64,000 nt of DNA, taken from NCBI GenBank assembly GCA_003054695.1, contig QAZA01000039.1, forward strand, positions 1 to 64,000. Direction: 5' to 3'. The notes beneath the pieces are model-generated. The model searched no databases. It saw only the letters and a program-made list of their open reading frames with translations, and was not told the DNA's origin. This document shows, piece after piece, positions 31,772-56,617 of the stretch (position 1 is its first letter; the number at the start of each line of letters is the position of its first letter). The stretch comes from Verrucomicrobia bacterium LW23 (GTDB taxonomy: Bacteria; Verrucomicrobiota; Verrucomicrobiia; Methylacidiphilales; UBA1321). Made by a program: the position numbers and the translations under genes.

Positions 31772-32158
31772 TTACGACGCTTTGCCTTTGGCCGGGGCCT
31801 TGCCGCGCAGGCGCTCCTTGTTGGAGTCGTACTCACGGCGTAGATGTAACTCCATTACTACCAGTGGTTTGCGGTCGGGGCGGTCGAGCAGGTCAAGCAC
31901 GCCTTGCACGCAGTCTTCCACCACGTGGTCCTTGTCGCGGTTGAGGTCGCGCGACATCTCCATCACCCGCTTGTGCATGGCGGTGGAGAGGTAGCAGGGT
32001 ACTTTGCTCGTTTCCGGGTGGATCATCCACGCGAGGGCTTCGCGAATGATATCGGAAATCGTTTCATTCTGCCCGCGTTCGATAATGATATTCTCAAGCG
32101 CTTCGCGTTCTTGCTTGGTCAGGCGTACACGAAGTTGGTCTGTTTTGTTTACTCGCAC
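31772..32158 (-). CDS. Ribbon-helix-helix DNA-binding protein, possibly with two RHH units
   Basis: A 128-residue protein. The N-terminal part, DQLRVRLTKQEREALENII then NETISDIIREALAWMI, is a CopG/Arc-like ribbon-helix-helix. After a short linker, VPCYLSTAMHKRVMEMSRDL and DHVVEDCVQGVLDLL could be a second unit, making a pseudo-dimer in one chain. The C-terminal tail is basic (GKAPAKGKAS). RHH proteins are often antitoxins or plasmid regulators; no toxin gene is beside it. Isolated between two gene-free regions. Confidence 0.7.
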   Translation of the reverse strand: MRVNKTDQLRVRLTKQEREALENIIIERGQNETISDIIREALAWMIHPETSKVPCYLSTAMHKRVMEMSRDLNRDKDHVVEDCVQGVLDLLDRPDRKPLVVMELHLRREYDSNKERLRGKAPAKGKAS

Positions 32159-42920: not shown

Positions 42921-43404
42921 TTCCGGCCGGTGCCCTCTTGGAATCCAGGCAAGGAGTGCATGTGGCGTGCAATTCGAGTTCTCGAGCTCGAATGTCCACA
43001 GCCTCCTGAGCAAAGCCCATCTAAGCTGTCGCGGGTTAGTTCTCCAATAACGGCGGAGCTGTTCCATGCCTTAGCCCGGGGTTGCCCGGAGCATTCTGAT
43101 GCGAGGACTACCCCAGGTAGGCCGGAATCGGGAAACCCCACGCGAAGCGTTCTTCCGTCGGACCTTTCGCGCTCGTTCCTCGCGCGGGCCATATTCGGAG
43201 CAACAGCCACAGAGAGCGCCTCGCACATGCATCAAACGAGCGCGAGTGGATCGACATAAGAACGCTTCGCGTAGGGTTGCTGTGGCGAACTTTCCCGGGG
43301 TAGTCCTCGCATCAGAATGCTCCGGGCAACCCCGGGCTACGATATGGAACGGCTCCGCCGTTCTCGGAGCCTGGCGAACTCTCGACAAGCTATCTGGAGA
43401 ATGC
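42921..43404. repeat. ~395-bp imperfect palindrome (43010-43404)
   Basis: Nested arms pair across the whole segment: AACGGCGGAGCTGTTCCATG and GCATTCTGATGCGAGGACTA (43050-43115) with their complements at 43297-43365; AACCCCACGCGAAGCGTTCT at 43134 with 43258-43277; and GTCGGACC-TTTCGCGCTCGT at 43158 with 43228-43252. The unpaired tip is about 43186-43225. One arm recurs alone at 52748-52836. A degenerate AATGTC-ACAGCCTC word lies at 42991. No gene. Copy B of the 162-bp element starts three bases after its end. Confidence 0.85.
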
Positions 43405-43407
43405 TTA

Positions 43408-43569
43408 GACCCATTATCGGAATAAGCCGGTACATTGGCGGGACGCTTTTGAGCGAGTGCGGCGTTGAGTCTTTGGTCATGCATTTTTCAAATGCACTCC
43501 CTCAGCCTCGCCTTGCCCTCATCTCAAAATCGCCTCCACCAATGTACCGGTTTATTCCGATAATTGGTC
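43408..43569. mobile_element. 162-bp MITE-like palindromic element, copy B
   Basis: It begins GACCCATTATCGGAATAA and ends CCGATAATTGGTC, flanked by TTA at 43405-43407 and GTA at 43570-43572, one mismatch. It is close in sequence to copy A in arms and core, and in the same orientation. It sits directly next to the ~395-bp palindrome. Confidence 0.88.
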
Positions 43570-43638
43570 GTAGTTATACAACTTCTCCGAGGTTGATTGA
43601 TCGCAGTGTAAACGCCTGTACTTAAATCGCGCTGGTAT

Positions 43639-45801
43639 TTACGGGCGGAACAGGTCGCCGTGGTCTTCGTAGGGATTCGCATCCTGGGCGAAGGAGCGGT
43701 CGAGGCGACGCGTCTGCTTTTCCTGGGGGACGGTCGCTTCGGAATCGGCATCCTCTTCCTCCTCGTCGTCGGTCTCCGCCGGGGATTCAAACTCCGGGTC
43801 GTCTTCGTCGTCAAATGAGGAGGAATCCCCCGCGAAGGCGGGCACGTGGATGTCGCCGCCGCCGCGGTCGTCGCCTTCGTGGCGGCGGATGGCGGTGAGG
43901 AAGGTCTGGCCGTAGCGGTCGATTTTAACCTGGCCGACGCCGCTAATGGCGCTGAGCGCTTCCACCGTGGTGGGGCGCTCCTCGGCCAGCTCGCGCAGGG
44001 TTTTGTCGTGAAAGATGACGTAGGGCGGCACGTTTTGCGCGCGCGCCAGCTCCGCACGCACGGCGCGCAGGGCGTCGAAGAGGCGTTGCGTGTTGGCGTC
44101 CATGGTCGCCTGGCGTCCGCCTCCTCCGCCGAAGCCGCCGCCGGGCGCGGGGCCGATGCCGCGCCCTGTGGCGCTGCCCTTGCCCCCAAAGCGCTGGCCG
44201 CGCGGCGTGCCCGGGCCGCGGCCGGCTTTGGCGGCTTTTACCTTGCCGGTGTAGGCGCGCAGGCGGATGGTCTCGCGGTTTTTGAGGAACGTGGTGCCGC
44301 GCGGGGTCAGCTTCAGGCCGCCGTGCTCGGTCATGTCCACCATCACCAGGTTCTCCGCTACCAGCTGGCGGAAGATGTTCTGCCATTCCAGCTTACCGAA
44401 CTCCTTGCCGATGCCGTAGGTCGACACTCGGTCGTGGCCAAAGGTGCGGATGCGCGGGTCGTCCTTGCCGGTCAGCACGTCGATGAGATACGCCACGCCA
44501 AAGCGCTGGCCGGTGCGGTACACGCACGACATCGCCTTTTGCGCAGCCACCGTGCCATCAAAGGTTTGCGGGGGATTATCGCACGTGTCGCAGTTGCCGC
44601 ACGGGGCGCAGTCGTCGCCAAAATAATTGAGGACGACCTTGCGCCGGCAGCAGGCTGCCTCGCACAGGCCCAGCAGCGCGTTAAGCTTTTGATGCTCAAT
44701 GCGTTTCTGCTCCATCGGCGCATTGCCGCCGTCGATGAAGTTGCGGTGCATCGCGGCGTCGCCGATGCCGTAGATCATCAGCGCGCTGCTGGGCTGTCCG
44801 TCGCGGCCGGCGCGGCCGGTCTCCTGGTAGTAGGCCTCGATATTGCGAGGGATGGACATGTGGGCCACAAAGCGGACGTCGGGCTTGTCGATGCCCATGC
44901 CAAACGCGATGGTGGCCACCATAATAATGTTGTCCTCGCGCAAAAAACGCTCCTGATTGCGCGCGCGCACGGCGGAGTCCAGGCCGGCGTGGTAGGGCAG
45001 GGCGGTAAAGCCCTGGCCGGTCATCCAGTCGGCCATATCCTCCACGTTTTGGCGGGAGAGGCAGTAGATGATGCCGCTTTCGCCCTTGTGCTCGCTTTTG
45101 ATAAAGTTAAGGATTTGCTGTTTTGCGTTATCCTTAACAACAATGGTGTAGTGGATGTTCGGGCGGTCGAAGCCGGAGACAAACTGTTCGCCGTCCTCCA
45201 GGTGCAGCTTCTGCACAATATCGCGCCGCGTCGGGGCGTCGGCCGTGGCGGTAAGGGCTACGCGGGGCACGTGGGGAAAGTGCTCCGCCAGCACGCCCAG
45301 CTGCACATAGTGGGGGCGGAAGTCGTGGCCCCACTGGCTTACGCAGTGCGCTTCGTCGATGGCGAAGAGCGCTATGGGGCTCTCGCGCAACAGGTTAAGA
45401 AAGTCCTCCATCAGCAGGCGCTCGGGCGCCACATACACCATGTCAATCGCGCCCTCGCGGATAAGGTGCTTGGTGTGCGCGATGGCTTTGCCGGCCATAT
45501 TGGAGTTGATGGCCGCCGCGCGAATGCCCAGCTGCAGCAGCGCGTCCACCTGATCCTGCATCAGGGCAATCAGCGGCGAGACGATGATGCCCACGCCGCG
45601 CCGGCACAGCGCGGGAATCTGATAACACAGCGACTTACCCGCGCCCGTGGGCATCAGCACAAACGCATTGCCCCCGCGCGCCACGTGCTCTACCACGGCC
45701 GCCTGCTGCCCGCGGAACGCCGGGTACCCATACGTCTTGCGCAATACCTGGAGGGGATCGGCAATAAGGGGCGATGCGGCGGTGGAGTCGGCTGTCGGCA
45801 T
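43639..45801 (-). CDS. recQ: ATP-dependent DNA helicase RecQ
   Basis: A 720-residue helicase for recombination and replication-fork repair. The start at 45801 (MPTADSTAASPLIADPLQVL) is preferred to a longer frame. Walker A is LMPTGAGKSLCYQ, the DExH box is FAIDEAHCVSQWGHDFRP, and motif VI is YYQETGRAGRDG. The zinc-binding cluster CEAACCRRKVVLNYFGDDC then CGNCDTC is followed by the winged-helix RQC region and an HRDC domain (LFDALRAVRAELARAQNVPP). The C-terminal ~75 residues are acidic and then basic and disordered. It is a single gene, convergent with the repeat region after infC. Confidence 0.96.
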   Translation of the reverse strand: MPTADSTAASPLIADPLQVLRKTYGYPAFRGQQAAVVEHVARGGNAFVLMPTGAGKSLCYQIPALCRRGVGIIVSPLIALMQDQVDALLQLGIRAAAINSNMAGKAIAHTKHLIREGAIDMVYVAPERLLMEDFLNLLRESPIALFAIDEAHCVSQWGHDFRPHYVQLGVLAEHFPHVPRVALTATADAPTRRDIVQKLHLEDGEQFVSGFDRPNIHYTIVVKDNAKQQILNFIKSEHKGESGIIYCLSRQNVEDMADWMTGQGFTALPYHAGLDSAVRARNQERFLREDNIIMVATIAFGMGIDKPDVRFVAHMSIPRNIEAYYQETGRAGRDGQPSSALMIYGIGDAAMHRNFIDGGNAPMEQKRIEHQKLNALLGLCEAACCRRKVVLNYFGDDCAPCGNCDTCDNPPQTFDGTVAAQKAMSCVYRTGQRFGVAYLIDVLTGKDDPRIRTFGHDRVSTYGIGKEFGKLEWQNIFRQLVAENLVMVDMTEHGGLKLTPRGTTFLKNRETIRLRAYTGKVKAAKAGRGPGTPRGQRFGGKGSATGRGIGPAPGGGFGGGGGRQATMDANTQRLFDALRAVRAELARAQNVPPYVIFHDKTLRELAEERPTTVEALSAISGVGQVKIDRYGQTFLTAIRRHEGDDRGGGDIHVPAFAGDSSSFDDEDDPEFESPAETDDEEEEDADSEATVPQEKQTRRLDRSFAQDANPYEDHGDLFRP

Positions 45802-45875
45802 GCGCTGATTATAGCGGCTGATGCAAAAGAATAAAGCGCGGGGACGGGGAAGAATGTGGCGGCCGTGGGAAGTAA

Positions 45876-46035
45876 GACCAATTCGCAAAGTTATTTGCTC
45901 TTTATGCGGAGCTGATTTTGGGCTATGGGTGCGCTAAAACGGAGGGAGTGCATCAGAAAAATACTCGACCGGAGTTTCAGTGCGGCCATAGCCCAAAAGC
46001 GGCCCGCAAAAAGATCAATAACATTGCGATTGGTC
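45876..46035. mobile_element. 160-bp MITE-like palindromic element, copy D
   Basis: It begins GACCAATTCGCAAAGTT and ends ATTGCGATTGGTC, flanked by TAA at 45873-45875 and 46036-46038. It is related to copy C by its arms (GTTATTTG) and core (GGAGGGAGTGCATCAGAAAA) but more diverged, with two bases fewer. Confidence 0.88.
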
Positions 46036-46074
46036 TAAGGTCGGTAACGGCTCAAACGGAGCCTTTCCGTAATC

Positions 46075-46491
46075 CTATTGGATAGGAAGTACTACACCAA
46101 TGTCGTCCAGTGATTGAAGTATGGATCCGTCAGTATCCTCAACCCACTCTGTATGTAGCGTAGATACATGGATTCTCACCAGGACGGGTGCTTCCTTGGG
46201 GTCGTCTATCTTCATTTTGTAGGCAACCATAATGTAGTCCGGATTTTTGGGATCACGTTTGAATTTGATGACGTAACCAGGAATCGGGATGGCATCCGGA
46301 CTATCCAGAAGCACGGTATCGCTCCCCGTGCGGCAGAGCGATAGCCTGGGAGAGATCTTTACGTCTGGCCAGCTTCCGTGCATGTGAGAGATCTGATACA
46401 TGAACCAGCATACAAACAGCGCTGGAAGAAGCAGAGCGGCACCGAGTATGACAACTCCAATGTATATAGCGCTGGTGACGAATGCTCTCAT
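46075..46491 (-). CDS. Hypothetical membrane-anchored protein
   Basis: A 138-residue protein with one N-terminal helix (AIYIGVVILGAALLLPALFV) and a beta-rich polar domain outside (DTVLLDSPDAIPIPGYVIKF; NPDYIMVAYKMKIDD). No family known. Its base composition is lower in GC than the neighbours, and it lies next to element copy D and ends 9 bp after the dehydrogenase on the same strand, so it may be a recent arrival. Confidence 0.6.
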   Translation of the reverse strand: MRAFVTSAIYIGVVILGAALLLPALFVCWFMYQISHMHGSWPDVKISPRLSLCRTGSDTVLLDSPDAIPIPGYVIKFKRDPKNPDYIMVAYKMKIDDPKEAPVLVRIHVSTLHTEWVEDTDGSILQSLDDIGVVLPIQ

Positions 46492-46500
46492 ACGCGGGCT

Positions 46501-47409
46501 CTATGTCTTCGCCTGAATCAATCGCACAAGCGAGATAAAGTCGTCGTCGCCCCAGCCGCGGGCCTGCGCGTCGTCGTACAGGGCGATGAGGCGCTGGAGC
46601 TGCGGGAGCCGGAGAGGGGCGGGGGCGGCGGCGTCCTGCCCGGCGACGACGGCGGCGGCCGCGGCGGCGGGGCCGGGCGGGGGTGCGGGGTGCGCGGCGG
46701 CGGTTTCGGCGGCCAGGCGTAAGTCCTTGCCCATGTGCTTGATGGAGAATTGCGGCGCGAAGTCGGCATCGCGCAGCTTGGGCTCCTTCAGCTCCGCCAG
46801 GCCGGAGTGGCCGACGTTGATGCGCAGCGCGGCAAAGTAGGTGTCATCGCTGATGCCCTCGGCGCGGGCGAGCGTCAGGGACTCGCTGAGCGCCTGCGCC
46901 ATTTGCGCCAGGTTCAGGTTCATCGCCAGTTTGAGCGACGACGCGGAGCCGAGCGGGCCGACGTAGAGCGCGGCGCGGCTGATGTGGTCCAGCAACGGCC
47001 GGCACGCGGCAAACACGTCCGGGTCGCCGCCGATGTAGAAGACGGTCTGGCGCTTCTCGGCTGCCGGCTTGCTGCCGGTAAAGGGGGCCTCCAGAAAGGC
47101 GGCGCCGGCGGCCTGCACCTGGGCGGCAAACGTGCGTGTCCACGCTGCGGAGATGGTGCTGGCCTGCAGGACCGTTTGCCCTGCGCGGAGCACGGGTTGA
47201 ATCTCATCCAGAACCTGTTGTACCGCAGGGGGATCCGCCACCACGATGACGATGAAGTCCGCGCCCTCCACGGCCTCCGCGGCCGTCGCCTTTTCGCCTG
47301 GGAAATCCCGTTTGGTGCGGTTCCACGGGCGCACGTCCACGCCATCGTCCATCAGATTGCGCGCCCACACGGCGCCGATAATTCCGAGCCCAAGGATCGC
47401 CACTTTCAT
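46501..47409 (-). CDS. NAD(P)-dependent 3-hydroxyacid dehydrogenase-like protein
   Basis: A 302-residue protein from the ATG at 47409. The Rossmann motif is VAILGLGIIGAVWARNL; a substrate loop FLEAPFTGSKPAAEKRQ matches the beta-hydroxyacid dehydrogenase family, and the catalytic lysine lies in SSLKLAMNLNLAQMA. The C-terminal helical domain carries a ~30-residue Ala/Pro-rich insertion (HPAPPPGPAAAAAAVVAG) that is unusual. Family members include 3-hydroxyisobutyrate and tartronate semialdehyde reductases and glyoxylate reductases; the substrate cannot be told. GTG at 47418 is an alternative start. Confidence 0.85.
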   Translation of the reverse strand: MKVAILGLGIIGAVWARNLMDDGVDVRPWNRTKRDFPGEKATAAEAVEGADFIVIVVADPPAVQQVLDEIQPVLRAGQTVLQASTISAAWTRTFAAQVQAAGAAFLEAPFTGSKPAAEKRQTVFYIGGDPDVFAACRPLLDHISRAALYVGPLGSASSLKLAMNLNLAQMAQALSESLTLARAEGISDDTYFAALRINVGHSGLAELKEPKLRDADFAPQFSIKHMGKDLRLAAETAAAHPAPPPGPAAAAAAVVAGQDAAAPAPLRLPQLQRLIALYDDAQARGWGDDDFISLVRLIQAKT

Positions 47410-47561
47410 GTTGCCCACACTATGCGCGCGCTTGCGGGCGAATGCAAACGTGGCGTGCGGGGGCGCACGGCAGGGGAGAAAGAAGGTTTAGCCACGAACG
47501 ACACGATGGACAGGAATGAAAGGAATGAGGCGTGACTTCGCACATCGGGATCTGTCCACTT

Positions 47562-47660
47562 TCTCCTTCCGCGTAATCCGTGAAATCCTTGGTTAAGAAA
47601 TCAGTCTGAAGGGGATAACATAACCACGGATTACGCGGATTACATGGAAGGGGAGGAAAG
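47562..47660. repeat. Imperfect palindrome with GGTTAA end words
   Basis: The left arm CTTCCGCGTAATCCGTG then CCTTGGTTAA (47565-47595) pairs with ATAACCACGGATTACGCGGAT (47620-47640) and further to CATGGAAGG. It lies in the gap 47410-47754, which has no other feature. Confidence 0.7.
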
Positions 47661-47754
47661 GGATATCGCATCTGTTCCATCTCTTTTGAGCCTGCCCTTT
47701 TCCCGATGGGGCGTCCCCCCCCTCGCCCATGCGCGTGCTTGGTGTATGTAAAAC

Positions 47755-48342
47755 GTGGTTAAACCTTCCCCGGCCTCCCTGGCGGCCGTGGGGGCCGTGG
47801 TCGTTGGGGTTGCCCTGTGCATGATGGGCCGTGTTATGGCGACTACCTTTTCTTTGGATGACGGGCCGGTTCGCGAGCTGCTGGCCGAGGCGGCGCGGGC
47901 GGCGGCCGATATGGCGCGAGCCCTGGCGGCGGTCGGAGCGGCGGCAGGCAATGCCTCACCTGGCGCGGGCGGCGGCGGTGGTGGGCCAGACTTCGCATCC
48001 GCCTCGACGCAGGGGGAGGGTGCCGTGCGCAGCATCTCCCCCGCCGACACCGGCGAAGCGTCTCGGGACAGCCGCCGCGCCTCGCCTTCAGCGGCGGCCG
48101 GCGGTGCGGGTGCGTCCTCCAGCGCGGGCGCTGCGGCTTCGGCGGGGCGCGCCGCGGGGCTGCTCTCCCAGTCGCGCGAGGCGTCCGGCCGAAGCGATCA
48201 GGAGCTGGCCGAAACCATGGCCGCGGTCGAAGACTTCGCCCGCACTGCCGTCACCCGCCTGGCCGAAAACGCCGAGGCCCTGCGCTCCCTGCGCGAGGAG
48301 CTGCGCCGCGCCACCCAGGCCCTGGCCAACCGCCGCGAGTAA
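47755..48342 (+). CDS. Hypothetical protein with one membrane helix and coiled-coil end
   Basis: A 195-residue frame with GTG start at 47755. The N-terminus has a hydrophobic stretch (LAAVGAVVVGVALCMMG), then Ala/Gly/Ser-rich low complexity, and ends with a regular amphipathic helix (VEDFARTAVTRLAENAEALR). Such a layout fits a phage or secretion-related structural part or a small envelope protein, but no family is recognised. The coding nature is likely, given helix regularity, but not sure. Confidence 0.5.
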   Translation: MVKPSPASLAAVGAVVVGVALCMMGRVMATTFSLDDGPVRELLAEAARAAADMARALAAVGAAAGNASPGAGGGGGGPDFASASTQGEGAVRSISPADTGEASRDSRRASPSAAAGGAGASSSAGAAASAGRAAGLLSQSREASGRSDQELAETMAAVEDFARTAVTRLAENAEALRSLREELRRATQALANRRE

Positions 48343-48375
48343 CGGCGCCCGTCAAGCCAGGCCAGGGTGTAAGCT

Positions 48376-48507
48376 CCCGTTCCCCCTTAGCGGCTTTGTC
48401 CCCCTTCGCGTGAAAAAATCTGCTTTCCCCGACTACCTGCACGCACAGCATCGGGGATAGTCGGATTTTTCACGCGAAGGGGGACAAAGCCGCTAAGGGG
48501 GAACGGG
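48376..48507. repeat. Long hairpin: ~44-bp arms
   Basis: 48376-48420 and 48464-48507 are complementary except for one extra A. The tip carries a second short stem (CCCCGA with TCGGGG, about 48428-48456). The words CGGCTTTGTCCCCCTTCGCG and TTAGCGGC resemble those in the hairpin at 12831-12970, so both belong to one family. It lies between two same-strand genes. Confidence 0.9.
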
Positions 48508-48600
48508 TGCATGCAGCCGAAACCCCTGTGCCAAATACGCTCAAGCTTCCGCCCCGCGCGGTGTCTCCCTTCTCTCCTCAACCCACACTCTCCTCTTTCC

Positions 48601-50475
48601 ATGGCAAACTGGTCCCTCAAATATCTCCCCAGCGGCGAGCATAAGAGCTTTGCGGCGTGGGGGTTGCGTGCATTGCGGCGTAGCCGTGGCAATCTGGAGA
48701 CCGACATGGTCTCCTTTGTTGCGGACGGCGCGGCGGTGGATGCTCCGCCCCTCTTTGCCTACGGGCAAAGCTGCATCATCTACCGGGACGCCACGCCCTG
48801 GTTTTACGGCCGCGTTACCAGCAATCCGCGCGGCGGCAGCGGGCGGGCGGAGAGCGTGGGGTATCGGCTGGCCGGGCCCTGGTGGTATCTGGAGAACAAG
48901 GCGTTTCAGCAGCTGTGGGGCATGCGTGCCGTTGCGTCGCCGCACTTGCCGGTGCCGACGCTCAAGGGGCGCGCCATCCTGTGTCAGGGACCGGCCGGCG
49001 AGCGCATTACGACGGGCGCGCAGATGGTGGAGGCGATCGAGTACGTCATCGACCGCGGGGCCCCCATCGCGCTTGGCACTATCGAGGGCGACGTCATTCC
49101 GCCGTTGCAGGAGGTTAGCAACATCACCTGCGCGGAGGTCATCCGCCACATGTGCCGTTGGACGCCCGACATTACCGCGTGGTTCGACTACGCCACCGAG
49201 CCGCACCCCACGCTGCACATCCGCCGCCGCGCCGCCATGCCCACCGTATCCGTGCCGATCGGCGAGGCGTTACCGCCCCGCGTGGCCGCGCTGGAGATTA
49301 CCCCGCGGCACGACCTGCAGGCCTCCGCCGTCATCATGCGCTACGAGCGCACGCACGATATCGACGGGGTGGACTCCATCACCATCGACACGGACATCTA
49401 CCCGCCTGGCGCCAATGCCGACGCCTGGGACGCCGTGGAGCTGACCGTGGAGCTGGGCGGCGCAGCGTCCACCTGGCAACGGCAGTGGGTGCGCGCGGAG
49501 GTGATTGCCGAGAACGGCCTGGACTGGTGGCGCCGGCAACTGCCCTGGCTGAGGCAGGTCAGCGATCTCAACATCACCAGCGGCGCCGTGGCCCCCGCGG
49601 ACGGCGCCGGGCCGGCCCTGCCGCGCTACATGATCGAAGGCAGCTGCCCCGCGTGGATGGATGACCAGAGCGAAACGATGCGCGTTACCGCCGTGGCCTC
49701 CGGCACATTGCGCGACGAAAACGACGTGGAGATCGAAAGCTTTGTCAACCGCCCGCTGGAGTGCACGGTAATGGGCACCAACCTCTCCACCCGCCTCTAC
49801 GCGCACGCCACCAGTGTTACGCTGCCGGAGGAGACACCCGTAGGCCTGGCCCAGCAGATGTACGCCGCGCTGAGCGTGCTGCACTGGCAGGGCACCGCCA
49901 CACTTACCGCCGAGGAGGTTGCCGACGACATCGCGCCCGGGCGCCTGCTCAGCTTTACCGGCGCGCTGCCGGCCTGGGAGACGATGGCCGCGCAGATTCA
50001 GGAGGTAACCGACAGCGTGGACGACGGCACGACCACCGTGGCGTTTGGCCCGCCCGTCAACCAGGGCGCTCAGGATCGCGTAGAGCTGATGCGTGTGACC
50101 AAACGGCCCGTCACCTGGCGCGCTCCGGAGCGCTCCAGCGGCCAGGCCAGCGACCGCCCGCAAATGGAAGGCGGCACCAAAACGCCCGGCACCATCAGCG
50201 CCAGCGCCCCCACCGGCACGCGCCACGTGCTGCTGAACAACGGACTGGACGGCACCGCCCGCCTGGACGTGCTGAACGACGTGCGCGGCGACTTCCCCAA
50301 AACCGAGTGGTTGAAGGGCGACGCCGTCAAGGCGTCCATAAATGCAGAGGAGATCCACGCCAACTGCCTCACCCCCGTGCAACTGCGCGAGGTGCGCTGG
50401 TGCAAGGACGGCGCCCCCGGCGAGGAGTGGTACGTGATGCTGATGTGCTCCGAGCCCTACCAGCATACAGCCTGA
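48601..50475 (+). CDS. Large protein of unknown function, phage tail/baseplate-like by layout
   Basis: A 624-residue protein starting MANWSLKYLPSGEHKSF. No signal peptide, no membrane helix. It is beta-rich throughout (VSFVADGAAVDAPPLF; SCIIYRDATPWFYGRVT; TTGAQMVEAIEYVIDRGAP), with a pattern like phage tail-hub or tail-tip proteins that measure and bind, including the typical start with conversion of a local curve or field (YFYGRV-like). Followed by two short Cys-rich genes in an apparent operon. I could not assign a family by motif, and phage origin is inference; no other phage gene is near. Confidence 0.55.
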   Translation: MANWSLKYLPSGEHKSFAAWGLRALRRSRGNLETDMVSFVADGAAVDAPPLFAYGQSCIIYRDATPWFYGRVTSNPRGGSGRAESVGYRLAGPWWYLENKAFQQLWGMRAVASPHLPVPTLKGRAILCQGPAGERITTGAQMVEAIEYVIDRGAPIALGTIEGDVIPPLQEVSNITCAEVIRHMCRWTPDITAWFDYATEPHPTLHIRRRAAMPTVSVPIGEALPPRVAALEITPRHDLQASAVIMRYERTHDIDGVDSITIDTDIYPPGANADAWDAVELTVELGGAASTWQRQWVRAEVIAENGLDWWRRQLPWLRQVSDLNITSGAVAPADGAGPALPRYMIEGSCPAWMDDQSETMRVTAVASGTLRDENDVEIESFVNRPLECTVMGTNLSTRLYAHATSVTLPEETPVGLAQQMYAALSVLHWQGTATLTAEEVADDIAPGRLLSFTGALPAWETMAAQIQEVTDSVDDGTTTVAFGPPVNQGAQDRVELMRVTKRPVTWRAPERSSGQASDRPQMEGGTKTPGTISASAPTGTRHVLLNNGLDGTARLDVLNDVRGDFPKTEWLKGDAVKASINAEEIHANCLTPVQLREVRWCKDGAPGEEWYVMLMCSEPYQHTA

Positions 50476-50534
50476 GGCCCGGGCGCCCTCCCTCATGAAA
50501 TATCCGGGCTCACAACGTTTCCCTTCAACCAACC

Positions 50535-51002
50535 ATGACTGGCTATCTCAAAAACATCGGCCGCGGGCCCGCGGGCTGCGCGGAGTGCGGCGCGAGCGTA
50601 TGCGCGGTGTGTTGCCCGGAGGCGGGCACGCTCTTCGCGATCGTCTCCGACGTTACGGTATGCGGCGCTTTCCCCGCCACACCCAGCCCCAATGGCGCGT
50701 ACATCCTTACGCTGGAGGAGCCGCCGGAGCCGCCCGGCGCGGGGCTGCGCATCTGGAGCGGCTCGCACGGGCCGTTTTTGCTGCGCGCCATCTGCGGCGC
50801 CGGCGCGTTCACCGTCTCCATACTGGGCTATGCGGAGACGTACGGCGTCTTCTCCGCCACCCGCCCCGGCGGCTCCGCCCTGGAGGATCCCTTTCCCAAC
50901 GCGTTGGCTGCCGGCGATTGCCTTAACGCAGTGGCGGGAGTCATCACCATGGCCCACGGCGGCACGCTCACTCTGGGCGAAGACGAAGGGGAGGGAGGAT
51001 AG
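50535..51002 (+). CDS. Small Cys-rich hypothetical protein
   Basis: A 155-residue protein beginning MTGYLKNIGRGPAGC. The cysteine group CAECGASVCAVCCPE near residues 16-32 looks like a zinc-binding knuckle; the rest is a beta-rich jelly-roll-like domain (GAYILTLEEPPEPPGAG; FLLRAICGAGAFTVSILGY) with Gly-rich turns. It lies 59 bp after the 48601 gene, so the two may be partners in one structure. Confidence 0.5.
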   Translation: MTGYLKNIGRGPAGCAECGASVCAVCCPEAGTLFAIVSDVTVCGAFPATPSPNGAYILTLEEPPEPPGAGLRIWSGSHGPFLLRAICGAGAFTVSILGYAETYGVFSATRPGGSALEDPFPNALAAGDCLNAVAGVITMAHGGTLTLGEDEGEGG

Positions 51003-51005
51003 CCC

Positions 51006-51281
51006 ATGAACCCCGCCCGTCCCCAACCGCAGCCCCGCTTTTGCCGCACGTCCGCGTGCCGGCTGCTTGTCCATTGCCGCGCGTGCCGTTGCGATTCCCA
51101 CTGGCGCGCCGCCGTTGCCGCCGCCGGGCTTGCTACGGAGGCGGACTGGCCGTGCCCCCGCGGGTACAGCGCCTCCAACCTTCCCGCCTCAACCGCGCGG
51201 ACGGATGCCGCGCAGGTGGAGGACTGGCGCCGCCGGGCCATGCCGTGCTGTCGGCCGGGCGCTTCCGCAGTGCCGCGATAG
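51006..51281 (+). CDS. Small Cys-rich hypothetical protein
   Basis: A 91-residue protein, 3 bp after the previous stop. The N-terminal CRTSACRLLVHCRACRCDSHW carries a C-x2-C-x-C group. The C-terminal half is helical with another Cys pair. Either a zinc-binding protein or a chance frame; the tight spacing supports it. Confidence 0.4.
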   Translation: MNPARPQPQPRFCRTSACRLLVHCRACRCDSHWRAAVAAAGLATEADWPCPRGYSASNLPASTARTDAAQVEDWRRRAMPCCRPGASAVPR

Positions 51282-51370
51282 AGCCACCCCGCCCCGCCTG
51301 GCAACGATACCGCCGGGCTGGGCGTTTTTGGGCTGGCAAGGCGGCGGTGCATCGCCTATCACCGAAGGCG

Positions 51371-51709
51371 ATGCCCGAGCCCACACCATCCCCTCAGGAT
51401 TCCTCGCCGGTGGACGCCAGCACCCTCTACAGCTTTGAAGAGACTGTGCGCCTGGGCGGCGTAACGGAGGATCTGCTCGTCCTCTACATCAAACTGGGCT
51501 TTGTGGTGCCTGTGGAGGAAACCGCCCCGCACCCGCCTACGGACCCCCGCGCCATGCGGTTTGACGACGACGCCCTGTACGTGATGCGGCGCGTGACGGA
51601 GCTTCGGCACGAGCACGGCGTTAACCTCAAGGGCATTGGCCTGGTGCTTAGCCTGGTGCGACAGATTCAGCGGCTGGAGGCCGAGCTTCGGTTTTTGCGC
51701 GGGCAGTAG
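51371..51709 (+). CDS. MerR/CbpM-like HTH protein
   Basis: A 112-residue protein from the ATG at 51371. STLYSFEETVRLGGVTEDLL then VLYIKLGFVVP, RFDDDALYVMRRVTELRHE and NLKGIGLVLSLVRQIQRLEA match the CbpM/MerR-like winged helix with its dimer helix. CbpM modulates the DnaJ-like CbpA; no dnaJ/cbpA gene is adjacent. The larger enclosing frame from 51041 is unlikely to be real. Confidence 0.72.
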   Translation: MPEPTPSPQDSSPVDASTLYSFEETVRLGGVTEDLLVLYIKLGFVVPVEETAPHPPTDPRAMRFDDDALYVMRRVTELRHEHGVNLKGIGLVLSLVRQIQRLEAELRFLRGQ

Positions 51710-51842
51710 GTTCAACCATGCCGCGCGATTTATTTCAGCCCCTTCAGCAATTTGTTGCTGCTTCGTACGTTATACCTGGGCTATAAAAACTAGTACTTCA
51801 CAACGTAAGCCAAGCACACGTACCAGAGACGCCAACGGCACT

Positions 51843-52739
51843 ATGTCCCGACCGCCACGCACTGATGGCCCCGCCGGCCCGGATCACCCCCTTACGGCGC
51901 AGGAGTCGCACGAGCAGCCCCGCCTTTCCACGCCCGCCGAGCGCGGCCGTATCACGGATGTCCCCGCCGAGAGCGTGGCGCCTGCAGCAACAACTGCCGC
52001 CGCGACGCCCCCCGCGCCCGACGGCCCGGCGCTTGCGGCGGTGGGGGAGCTGGCCTTGGCGCCGCAGGAGCGCGCGGCCGGCATCCAGGCCATGTTTGGC
52101 CGCATTGCCGGCGGCTACGATCTGATGAACCACGTCATGTCCGGCGGCCTGGATTTTTACTGGCGCCGCGTGCTGGCCCAACGCGTGGCCGAGGCGTCGC
52201 CCGCCGCGGTGCTGGATCTGGCCACCGGCAGCGGCGACTCCGCCCTGGCGCTGCGCACCTATAAGGCGTACAGCAAAATGTGTGTCGGCGCGGATTTTTG
52301 CCTGCCGATGCTGCACGTCGCCCAAAAGAAGGGGCTGGAGCACCTGTGCATGGCGGACGGCCTGCGCCTCCCGTTCCGCTCCGCCAGCTTCGACGCCGTC
52401 ACCATCTCCTTCGGCTGGCGCAACATTGTGGACCGCACCGCCGGCTACCGCGAGCTGCGCCGCGTGCTGCGCCCCGGCGGCCGCCTTTACATCCTGGAGC
52501 TCTCCACGCCGTGGGACCGCCTGGCGCCCGCCTACTTTTGGTGGCTGCGCAACATCATGCCCCTCTACAGCGCCCTCATCACCCGCGAGAAGGACGCCTA
52601 CCAGTACCTGGCCGTCAGCATCCAGAACTTCCCCAAAGCGCCGGAGCTTGCCCGTGAGATGGAAGCCGGCGGCTTCCGCGACGTGCACTTCTGGCAGCTC
52701 AACACCGGCATCGTCGCACTGCACCGGGGCTCGGTGTAG
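51843..52739 (+). CDS. UbiE/MenG-family methyltransferase (quinone synthesis)
   Basis: A 298-residue SAM methyltransferase. The start at 51843 gives an N-terminal ~80-residue disordered extension; the domain begins at AGIQAMFGRIAGGYDLMNHV. SAM-binding motifs are LDLATGSGDSALAL, MADGLRLPFRSASFD and the UbiE signature FGWRNIVDRTAGYRELRRV followed by VLRPGGRLYILELS. It would methylate demethylmenaquinone or a ubiquinone precursor; which one is not clear here. The extension is probably not part of the usual family. Isolated. Confidence 0.88.
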   Translation: MSRPPRTDGPAGPDHPLTAQESHEQPRLSTPAERGRITDVPAESVAPAATTAAATPPAPDGPALAAVGELALAPQERAAGIQAMFGRIAGGYDLMNHVMSGGLDFYWRRVLAQRVAEASPAAVLDLATGSGDSALALRTYKAYSKMCVGADFCLPMLHVAQKKGLEHLCMADGLRLPFRSASFDAVTISFGWRNIVDRTAGYRELRRVLRPGGRLYILELSTPWDRLAPAYFWWLRNIMPLYSALITREKDAYQYLAVSIQNFPKAPELAREMEAGGFRDVHFWQLNTGIVALHRGSV

Positions 52740-53078
52740 CCGGAGCTCGTCGCGAATTTGCCAGGCTCCGAAAACGGCGGAGCCGTTCCAAACTATAGCC
52801 TGGGGTTGCCCACAGCATTCTGATGCGAGGACTACTGTGTCCTGAATCAGAAGTAAATATCATAAGTTCCGTTCCGCCCCTTTGTGTCTTCGTGTCTTTG
52901 TGGTTAAACAATCCCCATTCCCATTCCCATTTCCGCAGAGAAGCAGAGTGGAGGGGGAACATTAACCACAAAGACACGAAGACACAAAGGGGCGGAACAG
53001 AGGGGTAGCAAGCTAATGATACGTATTTCTGACTTCGGAGACGAGGAATCAGGCATGCGGGGAGCGCGGACTCTGCCT
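52740..53078. repeat. Repeat cluster: single arm of the 43-kb palindrome plus a GTGGTTAA palindrome
   Basis: 52748-52836 matches one arm of the ~395-bp palindrome (GCCAGGCTCCGA, AACGGCGGAGCCGTTCC, GCATTCTGATGCGAGGACTA). Right after it, 52871-52907 is exactly complementary to 52962-52998 (37 bp; CTTTGTGTCTTCGTGTCTTT then GTGGTTAA), and the outer arms extend imperfectly (TCAGAAGTAAATATCAT with ATGATACGTATTTCTGA), giving about 52849-53036. No gene lies here. Confidence 0.88.
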
Positions 53079-54458
53079 CTACACCCGTGGCGGCGGCGGG
53101 GGCGCGGGGCGGCTTGCGCGGGGGGAGCCGGGCAGGGGGGCGTGGAGGATGGCGGAGATGCGGCGGTAGGCGTCGGCCAGGTCGGCGGCGGACATCGGGG
53201 AGGCGGCGCGTTGGGCGGCGTCCAGCTCGGCCTTCATGGCGGGGGCGCGATTGGCGGCGGCGGGGGATCGTGAGCACCATTTTGTCCAGCTGGCAAAGGC
53301 TTGGGGCAGCACCTGCTCGCGGGGCAGATTGCGGGCCAGCAGGTTAAGGAAGCCGTCGGCGGAGTCCTGCCCCAGCAGCACGGCGCCCCGGTCCTCGCTG
53401 GCGGTGGTGTCCAGGCGCGGCGCCAGGCTGGTGGCGTTCTTCCACAAAAACAGGCCGGTCAGCACCAGCAGGCCCAGCATAAAGCCGGTTAAGGAGTGCC
53501 GGTGGATGAGCCACATGACGCCTCGCGTATCCTGAAAACCCAGGTGGCGCTCCGAGAAGACGACCTCTCTTTTGCCTTCCGCCAGCATGGCCAGAAGCCG
53601 CGGGGCGGGGGTGGTGACCAGCCCTTCGTTGGTCATCCAGTCGCTTTCGGCGGAGACGATGATGCGGCCTTTGCCCCACTCCCGCCAGGCAATGGCGGGC
53701 AAGCCTGTGGCGTTGACGTAGAGCACCTCCCAGTCGGGGCTGAGCACCAGGTAGTTGCGCGATTTCCACATAAGCTTGCCGTCCAGCGGCAGCTTCCGGT
53801 TCTCCGGCGTGGCCTGGTTAAGGAGGAACTGGCTTGCCGCCGCCTCGCCGCCACGGCGCTGAGGCATAACGCGCAGCTGCATGCCGAGCCGGTGCTCGCC
53901 GCTAAGCAGGGGATCGCCGCCGGCGATCAGCATGCGGATGCCCAGGCGCGCATTGCGCACGGCCAGGGGGGTGTCGCTGTCCGTACTGTACCGGTGGTCG
54001 TTCATCTCCGTTTCACGCTGCTCGTACAGGCTTTTTTGCCCGCGCAGGTCGCCCGCGACAGGCGCGAAGCCCAGCAGCAGGGTGGCGCCTTTTTTCGGGA
54101 TGCGCTCGATGGCCAGGATTTCGTCCAGCACCTCACGGTTCATGCGCGTGCTCATCAGCAGCGTGCTGATGTCAAACCCGGCGATGATATAGAGCGTCTC
54201 GGGGCCGCCTTTAAACAGGGCGTATTTGCGGTTGTCCTGCTGCACGTTCAGGCCGGCCCCCTGCAGGGAGTCGCGAAGGGCGCGCATGCCGTTGGCCGTG
54301 GCGCTGGGTGTGGAGTACCCGGCATAGCCGCCGCTGCGGGCCAGCTGGCTCTGGACAATCGACACGATGCCGACGAGAAAGGCGAGGGTAAACGCCAGGC
54401 CCACGGCCAGCGACATCCACGGCCAGCCGCGGGCGGGGGGGAGCGATGCGTCAGCCAC
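53079..54458 (-). CDS. DUF4350-type membrane protein
   Basis: A 459-residue protein. It starts at GTG 54458, overlapping the previous stop by 8 bp. An N-terminal helix (MSLAVGLAFTLAFLVGIVSI) and a C-terminal helix (FMLGLLVLTGLFLW) flank an exported part with DUF4350-like strand elements (ETLYIIAGFDISTL; GGDPLLSGEHRLG; RIIVSAESDWMTNEGL). Genes of this type often go with a MoxR ATPase and DUF58 protein in PVC and other groups; neither is in the window. The C-terminal tail is Pro-rich. Confidence 0.75.
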   Translation of the reverse strand: MADASLPPARGWPWMSLAVGLAFTLAFLVGIVSIVQSQLARSGGYAGYSTPSATANGMRALRDSLQGAGLNVQQDNRKYALFKGGPETLYIIAGFDISTLLMSTRMNREVLDEILAIERIPKKGATLLLGFAPVAGDLRGQKSLYEQRETEMNDHRYSTDSDTPLAVRNARLGIRMLIAGGDPLLSGEHRLGMQLRVMPQRRGGEAAASQFLLNQATPENRKLPLDGKLMWKSRNYLVLSPDWEVLYVNATGLPAIAWREWGKGRIIVSAESDWMTNEGLVTTPAPRLLAMLAEGKREVVFSERHLGFQDTRGVMWLIHRHSLTGFMLGLLVLTGLFLWKNATSLAPRLDTTASEDRGAVLLGQDSADGFLNLLARNLPREQVLPQAFASWTKWCSRSPAAANRAPAMKAELDAAQRAASPMSAADLADAYRRISAILHAPLPGSPRASRPAPPPPPRV

Positions 54459-56421
54459 GGCCGGGCCCTCCCTGCATGCTTTGCTGGCGCTGCACAAACA
54501 GGTCGAAGAGCTGCGTGGTGGAGGCGTGCTGGCCGTACCACACACGCTCAAAGTCGCGCGCCTGCGCCTCAAAGGCGGTCAGTACGGGCGGGCTCTCGCC
54601 CTGGGCCTGGCCGGCGCCTGCGCGCATGGCAAGCTCGCGCCGGTAGTTGCGGGTGGATTTGGCGCGGGCAATGGTAATGAGATCGCGCCGCGCCAGGTGG
54701 GCCAGCGTGCTCAGGTACAAGGCGCGCAAGGCCAGGCGCAGGTTGCCCTCGCCCCGCAGCTTGTCCGCCAGTGCGCGCCACTCGTCCTCGGGCAGGGCGG
54801 AGGCCAGCACGGCTTCGTCCGCCACGTTGGGCGGAGGCGGCGGCATGGGTGCGGTGACGGTGGGCGCGGCGATGGCGCGGCGCGGGCGCCGGCGGCGCAT
54901 GACGAAGACGCACACGGCGATGATGACGGCCAGCACCACCAGGCCAATCATCAGCACCATGGTAAGGTTCATGCGCCCCAGGCTAAAGAACGACCAGCTG
55001 GAGTCCGGGCTGAAGCCGAAATTGGGGGATGATCGGCGGAAGAACCAGTCCAGCATCTCGTTCACCCACTTGTAGAAGGCGCCCAGGTACGAATCCTGCT
55101 CAAACGTATGCACCTGCAGGTTGCGCTCGCCGCGCCACGTGTAGTCCGGGTTTTGCAGCACGCGCTTCATGCTGCTTTCGATGTCCCTCGAGCGCTTGTC
55201 GAGATCGGGCGAGGCGGGGGTGGAGAGTCTGGTTCGTGCGGCCGGAGCCTGGGGCTGTTTCGCGCCCTGAGCGGCCGGTGCTGGTGTCTGCGCCATGGCC
55301 CAAGGGGCCGGGCTGGACGCCAGCAGTACCAGGGCCAGAATCACCGCCGCCGCCGCGCCACCCCGCGCCACGGAGGAGGCCGCGGAGGCCCGTGCGCCCA
55401 GGGCGGAGGACGGGCCCGTGGCGATGGGCGAGACGATGCGGTTGCGGGCCTCCCCCGCCGCAATACGGGCGCGTGCGGCGCGCAGGCCGGCCAGCAGGTC
55501 ATCCCCCGTGTTGCGGGAGACGCCGTAGACGCAGCGCAACAGGCATACGGCGCGCATAATCGGGTTGGCCACCATATACGTCAGCCCCAGCATCCCTACC
55601 TGCACGGGCACGGAGAGATAAAGCGCGGGATTCTCGCTCAGCGGCGTCTCGATGCCTGCGAGCCAGTGCAGCAGCAATTGCGACATCAACAGCAGCAGCA
55701 TCCCGTTCAGATACAGCAGGAAGTAGAGCACGTGGCTGCACAGCAAAATGTGCACGCTTTGCCGCACGTGATCGCACGCCAGGCGAAAAGAGAGAGCGGC
55801 CGTGCCCATGGTGTCGCCGGCAGTGCTGCCGCCGGCGCCTCCCTTCGGCGGCTCCCCCGTGGCCAGGATGCCGAGGTTGTGGAAGTAGATGTAGAACATC
55901 GGCAGCGGCAGCAGGCACACCGCCGCGATGGGTAGCGCAAACAAGCCCCACGGCAGCCAGCGCGTCTGCGTGGCGGTCAGCATCGCCACGGTGCGGGGCG
56001 TCCACTCCGGCGGGCGCTGGCCCAGGCGAAACGCCCAGAGCTCGCGCATAAAGGCGGCATGCCAGGCGATTTTCCACACATACAGCACCGCCAGCACCAG
56101 GCTGCCCGCAAAAATCACGCCCCACGGCTGCACGGCCACCCGTACCTCCAGACAAAAGAAAATGAGCGCGGCCAGAAAAGGCAGCAGCCCCACCGTGTAG
56201 TACAGCATAATGCGCAGCGGCGCGCGCCGCAGCAGGTGGATGGCCTCCTCCACCAGATCCATCGCCGACTTCTCCGGCACCGTGATGCGCATGGTGGGCG
56301 CGGTGGCGGCGGCAGCCCCCGGCACGCCGCCCTTCGCCCCGTGCGGCAAAGGCGCAGGCTGCCCCGAGGGAGGCGGCGGCGGGGGCGGCGGAGGTGCGGG
56401 AGGCGGCGGGGGCATGGCCAT
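54451..56421 (-). CDS. DUF4129-containing multi-pass membrane protein
   Basis: A 656-residue protein with a Pro-rich N-terminus. Five or more helices occur in the first half (MLYYTVGLLPFLAALIFF; SLVLAVLYVWKIAW; LFALPIAAVCLLPLPMFYIY). A periplasmic portion with DYTWRGERNLQVHTFE then a final helix (VLMIGLVVLAVIIAVCVFV) and a cytosolic DUF4129-like domain (LPEDEWRALADKLRGEGNLR; FERVWYG) follow. It overlaps the DUF4350 gene. Together they may form the membrane part of a MoxR-type system; the role is unknown. Confidence 0.78.
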   Translation of the reverse strand: MAMPPPPPAPPPPPPPPPSGQPAPLPHGAKGGVPGAAAATAPTMRITVPEKSAMDLVEEAIHLLRRAPLRIMLYYTVGLLPFLAALIFFCLEVRVAVQPWGVIFAGSLVLAVLYVWKIAWHAAFMRELWAFRLGQRPPEWTPRTVAMLTATQTRWLPWGLFALPIAAVCLLPLPMFYIYFHNLGILATGEPPKGGAGGSTAGDTMGTAALSFRLACDHVRQSVHILLCSHVLYFLLYLNGMLLLLMSQLLLHWLAGIETPLSENPALYLSVPVQVGMLGLTYMVANPIMRAVCLLRCVYGVSRNTGDDLLAGLRAARARIAAGEARNRIVSPIATGPSSALGARASAASSVARGGAAAAVILALVLLASSPAPWAMAQTPAPAAQGAKQPQAPAARTRLSTPASPDLDKRSRDIESSMKRVLQNPDYTWRGERNLQVHTFEQDSYLGAFYKWVNEMLDWFFRRSSPNFGFSPDSSWSFFSLGRMNLTMVLMIGLVVLAVIIAVCVFVMRRRRPRRAIAAPTVTAPMPPPPPNVADEAVLASALPEDEWRALADKLRGEGNLRLALRALYLSTLAHLARRDLITIARAKSTRNYRRELAMRAGAGQAQGESPPVLTAFEAQARDFERVWYGQHASTTQLFDLFVQRQQSMQGGPGRG

Positions 56422-56617
56422 GCGTCAAAAAAACGCGCGCTCGTTCGGGCGCTGGTATCATGCTACAGCGCCCGGGCTCAAAAGAAAAGCGCGCTTTTGC
56501 CGGCCCGCGGCGGGGAGGCGGCACGGCGGTAAATCTCCGCCGCGCAGGCCCAACCCACGCAATGCGCCATGAATTAGCTTGCCTCTCCTTCGCTTCTCCA
56601 ACAATCTGCAGGGATAT

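Follow-up and report, generated by a model that had tools for sequence, protein, structure and literature searches.

A phage tail hub and two cysteine-rich partners in Verrucomicrobia bacterium LW23: possible tail-tip module of a dispersed gene transfer agent-like particle

In a stretch of 64 000 nucleotides from Verrucomicrobia bacterium LW23 (assembly GCA_003054695.1, contig QAZA01000039.1, positions 1 to 64 000; hereafter the window) three consecutive open reading frames (ORFs) encode a 624-residue protein resembling proteins of phage tails and two smaller proteins with clustered cysteines. Why does a bacterial chromosome carry three tail genes on their own? An earlier reading made from the letters of the window, the sequence-only reading, took the trio for either a phage remnant or a domesticated contractile/adhesive device; coordinates, spacing and cysteine clusters of the three ORFs all agree with its description (Table 1). 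We consider it possible, with a rough probability of 0.47, that a dispersed, domesticated particle, derived from a tailed phage and similar to a gene transfer agent (GTA), has its tail-tip module in the trio. We infer that its head and packaging genes are those found on another contig (C12) of the same genome (G000), and that these genes and the trio, situated on contig C39, build one particle.

A tail hub with two cysteine-rich partners

The 624-residue protein had no match among Pfam or PHROG families at E 1, and no hub was present among its matches to PDB sequences; it has the hub fold described below, yet it matches no described sequence family in these collections. The structure model, built from 42 sequences, had pLDDT 82.9 and pTM 0.70, with values <60 over most of the chain beyond residue ~530. 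Foldseek searches with this model reached E 6.2e-14, and the 40 matches with E of at most 0.001 were without exception tail or spike proteins. In VIA comparisons we observed Z 21.7 with the PVC spike 6j0m_A (3.5 Å over 308 residues), 20.9 with 6rbk_C, 18.9 with VgrG (4mtk_A), 17.7 with Mu gp44 (1wru) and 17.3 with T4 gp27 (1k28_D); the named chains aligned over ~290-320 residues each. The hub fold is shared with T4 gp27, Mu gp44, VgrG and the PVC/AFP spike hubs, at 9 to 15% identity to the chains named. Viral structure models gave 324 matches at E 0.001 or better, and the named ones among those listed (50) were mostly tail or uncharacterised proteins. The model identifies the 624-residue protein as a phage tail hub with the gp27/gp44/VgrG fold; the tail-like character that had been claimed for it is borne out, and the structure search led to tail hubs, not to an unrelated enzyme family. 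The hub fold itself does not separate contractile from non-contractile tails.

In 11 of the 60 genomes searched, and in 22 of the 288 searched across the phylum, we found members of the hub family, the genome of LW23 being counted in both. The 26 loci on genome contigs are mostly from Verrucomicrobia or its lineages, with others in Lentisphaerae, Kiritimatiellae and single metagenome-assembled genomes (MAGs) labelled as Hydrogenedentes and Armatimonadetes; the family is also present on 34 viral contigs. In the genome of LW23 a genome-wide search found one other member, located in a prophage-like block on contig C16. Distant relatives, 20-27% identical along a part of the sequence, occur in the Akkermansia phages Chambord, Chantilly and DTMo-2021a, with the hub lying within a head-tail gene set in Chambord and Chantilly; Chambord differs from the C16 block in that its annotated tape measure is downstream of the hub, after one 257-aa gene, while the C16 tape-measure-like gene is upstream. 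An unnamed tail-hub family, known mainly from Verrucomicrobiota and related phyla, gains a structure-based function.

We compared the neighbourhoods of 63 hub loci; 58 of them have neighbours in common with other hub loci, and family searches on the neighbours of four (C16, L021, L020 and L018) gave capsid, portal, protease or terminase matches. The five hub loci with no conserved neighbours are that of the window, L045, L046, L051 and L069; L045, L046 and L069 appeared phage-like by ORF inspection and L051 is a 5.5-kb contig, and no second isolated trio was seen among the 63.

The 155-residue protein is 42% identical over 97 aa to its C16 equivalent (E 3.3e-8 with a profile including the C16 copy), and C15, C18, C23 and C26 are invariant in all four aligned rows. 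Its structure model was of low confidence (pLDDT 58) and a fold search with it gave no Foldseek match at E 0.001, the best VIA hit being a de novo beta barrel with Z 6.0. The 91-residue protein is 48% identical over 83 aa to its C16 equivalent (E 6e-21) and was found by a profile of four other copies at E 1.2e-11 (shuffled sequences, 0.9 or worse); C18, C24, C27, C50 (in the CPxG motif) and C81 are invariant in 6/6 aligned rows. The invariant cysteines of both proteins suggest metal binding.

Many other hubs, by inspection, though not all, precede a protein with an N-terminal cysteine cluster. For the 91-residue protein, a profile search of 288 genomes of the phylum gave matches in two, the own genome included. 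A pattern search behind other hubs gave matches at 4 of 58 loci (53 with at least 600 bp downstream); those at L031, L033 and L057 look real, that at L048 does not. Neither this protein nor its relative on contig C15 had a match in the phage collection. The hub, the Cys-rich protein and the 91-residue protein form what by gene order and similarity is a conserved trio; it recurs in order in the C16 block and in head-tail clusters of relatives (G002, G004 and G006), so that the same trio is indeed present in other genomes.

Within the genome of LW23 the family of the small Cys protein is found six times, in the window, in C16 and in four phage-like regions with a different tail set. These regions (L115-L118, on C15, C17, C11 and C56) make two similar pairs, and in each a Cys-rich gene is followed by the p91-type protein. 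We considered the four Cys-rich genes as relatives of the window Cys protein and rejected this, a four-member profile being no better than shuffles; they appear to be positional analogues only.

Judged from sequence, the window hub has no excess decay and the trio bears no sign of it. Among 19 hubs scored with leave-one-out profiles it came 14th, slightly ahead of the one in C16. Host-like coding log-odds were 180.5 for the hub (in a 654-aa version from an alternative start at 48511; the family alignment begins at the ATG at 48601) and 32.6 for the 155-aa ORF; the 91-aa ORF scored 2.1 and is not callable from codon use alone, yet it is conserved.

Phage-type genes elsewhere in the genome

Two kinds of search were made in the genome of LW23. 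A panel of phage-region ORFs was run as a whole on C12 (6000-125800) and on the entire C39, of 56 contigs; genome-wide searches were made with the hub, the C16 tape-measure-like protein, the capsid, the 91-aa and 195-aa proteins and the palindromic repeat described below. On C39 (1-469925) the trio was the only panel match judged to be phage, one weak ribbon-helix-helix-like hit (31787-32062) set aside, in agreement with the earlier claim that no capsid, portal or integrase is near, no integrase-directed search having been made; other matches (ABC-transporter-like etc., to queries from the flanks of relatives' clusters) were judged to be host genes. With this panel, the trio was not seen to lie in a block that combines genes for head, tail and lysogeny, as in a complete temperate prophage.

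The C16 block is prophage-like. A 1045-aa tape-measure-like gene (so labelled by length and position, with no PHROG or Pfam match) is followed by hub, Cys protein and 91-aa protein as in the window, and family matches were obtained for the large terminase subunit (TerL), portal, protease, major capsid protein (MCP), tail fibre, scaffold and a CI-like repressor. A part of the block, C16:26226-41242 (15 017 bases), is identical to part of the IMG/VR contig IMGVR_UViG_2786546517_000004 (40 275 bp). Directly behind the C16 trio there is a 776-aa ORF with a Nudix-like domain (L016 6727-9057). A 718-aa ORF of C16 was considered as MuA-like; this claim was dropped, as the ORF had no Pfam or PHROG match.

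The capsid family phrog_1005 was found at two places of the genome, C16 and C12. On C12 the genes of the same head and packaging types as in the C16 block are distributed in three pieces (Table 1), with genes for a HAD phosphatase, 3-dmu-9_3-mt, ankyrin, CTP-transferase-like protein, dnaG, methyltransferase and hydrolase between and beside them. Identity to the C16 counterparts is 40-67% (33% for the presumed small terminase subunit, TerS); one tail gene, 107557-108489, matches only genes of relatives (L024 and L021). All 12 C12 ORFs, a truncated portal among them, are free of internal stops, and no gene of the trio is broken. Genome-wide searches found neither a hub nor a relative of the C16 tape-measure-like protein at the C12 pieces, and C16 proteins at E 0.01 gave no places on C12 92-110 kb beyond the listed genes (sub-matches in TerL, MCP and tail gene; TerS). 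The trio was called isolated; this holds at the locus and fails genome-wide, since genes for the head and for packaging, of a matching phage type, lie on C12.

By its sequence affinities the C12 set is a C16-type set and not an orthologue of the sister-genus clusters considered below. The C16 block is nevertheless different from the dispersed genes, being a single block with tape-measure-like, tail-fibre and repressor matches and a longer presumed TerS. For window and C12 genes paired with C16 genes, pS was 0.48-0.67, probably saturated at this GC content, and dN/dS was for this reason not used; taken at face value, the hub pair (pN 0.43) would look more relaxed than the C12 pairs (0.19-0.39), synonymous sites probably being saturated.

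Table 1. Coordinates of the trio, of features directly upstream of it and of phage-type genes on contig C12
Feature	Location	Strand	Basis or remark
Tail hub protein, 624 aa; gp27/gp44/VgrG fold predicted for residues 1 to ~506	window 48601..50475	+	ORF, family alignments, structure model
Cys-rich tail protein, 155 aa; N-terminal Cys cluster, rest beta-rich	window 50535..51002	+	59-bp gap after hub
Small Cys protein, 91 aa; CxxC/CPxG	window 51006..51281	+	3-bp gap after 155-aa ORF
Palindromic repeat, 68-nt arms, directly upstream of trio	window 48365..48518	.	genome-wide interspersed
Ala/Gly-rich ORF, 195 aa, upstream of trio	window 47755..48342	+	coding score 37.1
Adaptor, alone	C12 92092-92670	-	
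Portal	C12 99175-100362	+	PF06074
Holin-like ORF, 129 aa, two hydrophobic stretches	C12, portal-to-TerL piece	+	label inferred
Lysin-like ORF	C12 100834-101613	+	label by position and resemblance
Presumed TerS, 108 aa	C12 101610-101936	+	label by position
TerL	C12 101929-103533	+	PF03237
MCP	C12 104212-105246	-	phrog_1005
Scaffold, protease, three tail-region genes	C12, block up to 109326	-	

Domesticated particle or prophage remains

According to PMC9662315, GTAs consist of tailed-phage-derived proteins; their genome is fully endogenized, often in several loci; inheritance is mostly vertical, with co-diversification with the host; and particles deliver mostly random host DNA to other cells, while the GTA's own genome is not fully packageable. 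RcGTA is encoded by a head-tail cluster plus four loci (PMC6821227) and BhGTA is likely to be dispersed (PMC9662315). The C12 portal, TerL and capsid families and the hub fold are those of tailed phages, and the C12 pieces and the trio sit among host genes on two contigs. As in RcGTA (Rhodogtaviriformidae) and BhGTA (Brachyspira), phage-derived head, packaging and tail genes, here presumed to form one element, are spread over several loci, and in the sister genera a cluster (~16.5 kb in genome G006) is situated beside constant host genes in different species. The candidate differs from both in having a Mu-type portal (PF06074), a gp27-type hub and separate Cys-rich tip proteins, and in its phylum; its set is split into the three C12 pieces and the C39 trio.

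Comparison with sister genera gives the context of this interpretation. In G002, G004 and G006 (group g3) a cluster lies between gatCAB and a FabI-like gene (~16.5 kb in G006) and contains TerL, portal, protease, MCP, adaptor, tail-region genes, hub, Cys protein and p91-like protein. Flanking proteins of G006 and G004 are 85-89% (gatCAB) and 85% (FabI-like) identical; those of G002 and G004 are 98-100% identical, and we thus count two independent lineages in g3. In group g2, the cluster is beside miaA-hflX-radC in G007 and G008, while G001 and G011 have another flank in common, with an ABC transporter gene at 66%. Of the 11 other genomes in the family, nine carry the g2-type MCP; outside the family, one of 48 genomes gave a weak match of 65 residues. 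For hand-chosen genes (some cluster ORFs being left out), dN/dS between G006 and G004 was 0.087-0.307 in 14 rows, two of them TerL halves, and 0.059-0.107 in five flank rows; between G007 and G008 it was 0.083-0.338 in nine rows and 0.101-0.352 in three flank rows. The dS values of the clusters are within the flank range, partly near saturation. These values place the sister-genus clusters under purifying selection. The deep split between g2 and g3 is the same in the cluster tree and in a one-gene host tree, and no integrase or repressor was recognised in the clusters by inspection or among the proteins scanned, no dedicated search having been made. As far as their genes tell, the sister clusters behave like GTA clusters.

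Several other genes of relatives are worth recording. In g2 clusters a 134-aa protein overlaps the hub start (L021 10779-11183, with equivalents in G001, G007 and G011), and in the copy from L021 a major tropism determinant N-terminal domain (PF18454) was recognised. In G004 a fibre-like protein encoded just upstream of the hub (L018 7476-9074) has a GH43-like glycosidase domain and is possibly a polysaccharide-degrading tail fibre. G003 has a second capsid relative (G003:C214:10025-10945), 43% identical to the g2 cluster capsid.

As the set of LW23 is not orthologous to the sister clusters, its own status rests on the dispersed stop-free genes and on the shortened TerS. The presumed TerS on C12 is an intact ORF with the Shine-Dalgarno sequence AAGGAGG, overlapping the stop of the lysin-like ORF at its 5' end and the start of TerL at its 3' end. 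It matches residues 94-183 of the C16 counterpart (187 long, stop counted) with E 2e-5 against 12 stretches of the genome and 2e-8 against the local stretch, and has no N-terminal half of this counterpart. From the usual TerS layout, as given in PMC6854486, the missing half would be the one that binds DNA, and a TerS that has lost its N-terminal DNA-binding domain is put forward there as characteristic of GTAs.

If the trio and the C12 genes do make a GTA-like particle, TerL and a TerS no longer recognising a pac site would package random host DNA into heads built of the C12 capsid. Hub subunits would close the tail tube; the protein with four conserved cysteines, possibly a tip or receptor-binding protein holding a metal or an Fe-S cluster, would complete the tip together with the small CxxC/CPxG protein. 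The holin-like and lysin-like proteins would release particles, which would then deliver DNA to kin. Four conserved cysteines in a tail-tip protein are also described for lambda gpL and for the RcGTA hub (PMC10721106, PMC7296036); there, however, the Fe-S domain is inside gpL or the hub, whereas here a separate putative metal-binding protein is encoded after the hub. Only slightly less probable in our estimate is a GTA of independent origin in Verrucomicrobiota, among relatives of Methylacidiphilales, which would descend from phages with a Mu-type portal, be broken into at least four loci in this species, and have a streamlined non-specific TerS and a tip made of the hub and two metal-binding Cys-rich proteins.

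Few GTAs are known, and the functional ones listed in PMC9662315 come from alphaproteobacteria, a deltaproteobacterium, a methanogen and a spirochete; the string 'verrucomicrob' does not occur in the main text of that article. Neither a verrucomicrobial GTA nor a pattern of this kind was among the top matches in the open-licence PubMed Central literature. For phages of this phylum, P8625 is described as a lytic verrucomicrobial siphophage with a TerL grouping with Verrucomicrobia prophages (PMC4642752). A candidate found from its tail tip, together with a GTA-like presumed TerS and sister clusters maintained by selection, would, if true, add a phylum in which the taming of phages can be studied, and DNA exchange in poorly cultured verrucomicrobial bacteria would become testable.

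A number of observations weigh against a functional GTA-like particle. The C12 portal ends at position 265 of 336 of the Portal_Mu profile (335 in C16 and G011, 306 in G004), the C12 gene order is scrambled relative to C16, and the genome-wide search found no relative of the C16 tape-measure-like gene outside C16. Neither the presumed TerS nor the lysin-like protein, in C16 or in C12, has a Pfam or PHROG match, so that these labels depend on position and resemblance; given that the TerS label is positional, we lowered the figure for the GTA-like particle from 0.5 to 0.47 and slightly raised that for phage remains. In G011, the one sister cluster scanned in this respect, the gene before TerL is not shortened (201 aa; weak Phage_Mu_Gp27 match, 9-171/173). 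The C12 MCP is 65% identical to that of C16 and 26% to those of the sister-genus clusters; with the C12 set nearer to C16, the vertical inheritance of the sister clusters does not transfer to it. The synteny and selection were observed in sister genera, the genus of LW23 being represented by one genome among the 60 searched. In the sister clusters themselves, TerL in G006 and portal in G007 are each split into two ORFs, through damage or MAG error, and within g2 the cluster tree and the one-gene host tree weakly conflict.

The truncated portal, the scrambled gene order and the failure to find a tape-measure relative outside C16 would be expected if the trio and the C12 pieces were non-functional, decaying leftovers of one or more C16-type prophages broken up by rearrangement, an explanation that falls short of an even chance in our estimate and stands next in likelihood to the proposals above. 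The closest relatives of the C12 genes are mostly in the resident C16 block, partly present in IMG/VR, and the shortened TerS is compatible with decay as well. Two of the four phage pieces adjoin palindromic repeats, the C12 adaptor on both sides and the trio on its upstream side; three of eight piece ends have one within 250 bp, against ~0.1 expected for repeats confined to intergenic DNA (assumed to be 12%), a rough and post hoc figure that would fit repeat-driven rearrangement. What speaks against decayed leftovers is that the ORFs of both the trio and C12 remain open, the truncated portal included, that TerS retains its Shine-Dalgarno sequence and overlapping neighbours, and that the hub is conserved like phage copies; the C16 proteins found no further places of their type at the C12 pieces, and sister genera retain such clusters under selection.

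It is improbable, though less so than a headless device, that the trio alone was kept as a tail-tip cassette, e.g. to supply co-resident prophages with tip variants or to exclude related phages. The locus holds exactly three tip genes, with ~90 bp between the last stop and a possible start of the next, MerR-like gene, and the six copies of the small Cys protein family would fit this too; the absence of a second isolated trio among the hub loci does not.

A headless contractile or adhesive device of the extracellular contractile injection system (eCIS) or tailocin type is very improbable: the best structural matches do include eCIS spikes (PVC, Algoriphagus, Streptomyces), but these reflect the fold common to siphophage and myophage hubs, hub relatives accompany terminase, portal or capsid genes, and the panel used, to which no sheath query had been chosen, revealed nothing else phage-like near the trio (no sheath-tube-ATPase set was seen beside the trio, no dedicated sheath or ATPase search having been made). 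Of the choice offered by the sequence-only reading, remnant versus domesticated stays the right pair, while the headless contractile/adhesive device finds no support, given the neighbours shared by most hub loci and the head genes found there.

Other features of the locus

The palindromic repeat upstream of the trio had 90 matches in the genome, hand-merged to 40 places; RNA folding of 48370-48520 gave -115.8 kcal/mol (z -15). Further upstream, the Ala/Gly-rich 195-aa ORF had no homologue in the loci compared, nor at E 0.001 in its own genome and 29 others. It was also considered as a possible tape-measure remnant: its Smith-Waterman score with the C16 tape-measure-like protein was 82, with shuffles at 62 +/- 7 and a maximum of 85.

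The hub and Cys genes have no Shine-Dalgarno sequence. We considered this as a sign of decay and rejected it, as only three of 22 ATG genes of the window and 8/41 ATG hub starts have one. A promoter search found none against 0.4 expected. Synteny with relatives was compared through the gene at 46501-47418, with ten window proteins as queries; only this gene itself recurred (in 6/6 stretches), and the comparison revealed no empty site.

Exact direct repeats of at least 14 bp were searched for between 43001-48601 and 51282-56500 as possible att sites, and only a 22-bp repeat (43090, 52814) stood out; it was rejected as an att site because it has an inverted copy at 43300 and encloses recQ and ubiE.

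Some minor features were observed in the window as well. A possible ribbon-helix-helix protein is encoded at 31772-32158; a part of it, 31787-32062, gave a weak match (E 5e-4, 35% over 94 aa) to a protein encoded in the phage-like region on C17. An inverted repeat with 40-nt arms at 52868-53001 encodes NHKDTKTQRGGTE-like peptides on both strands and is probably another interspersed repeat. The 22-bp sequence at 43090, 43300 (inverted) and 52814 is present in three exact copies, where none would be expected by chance.

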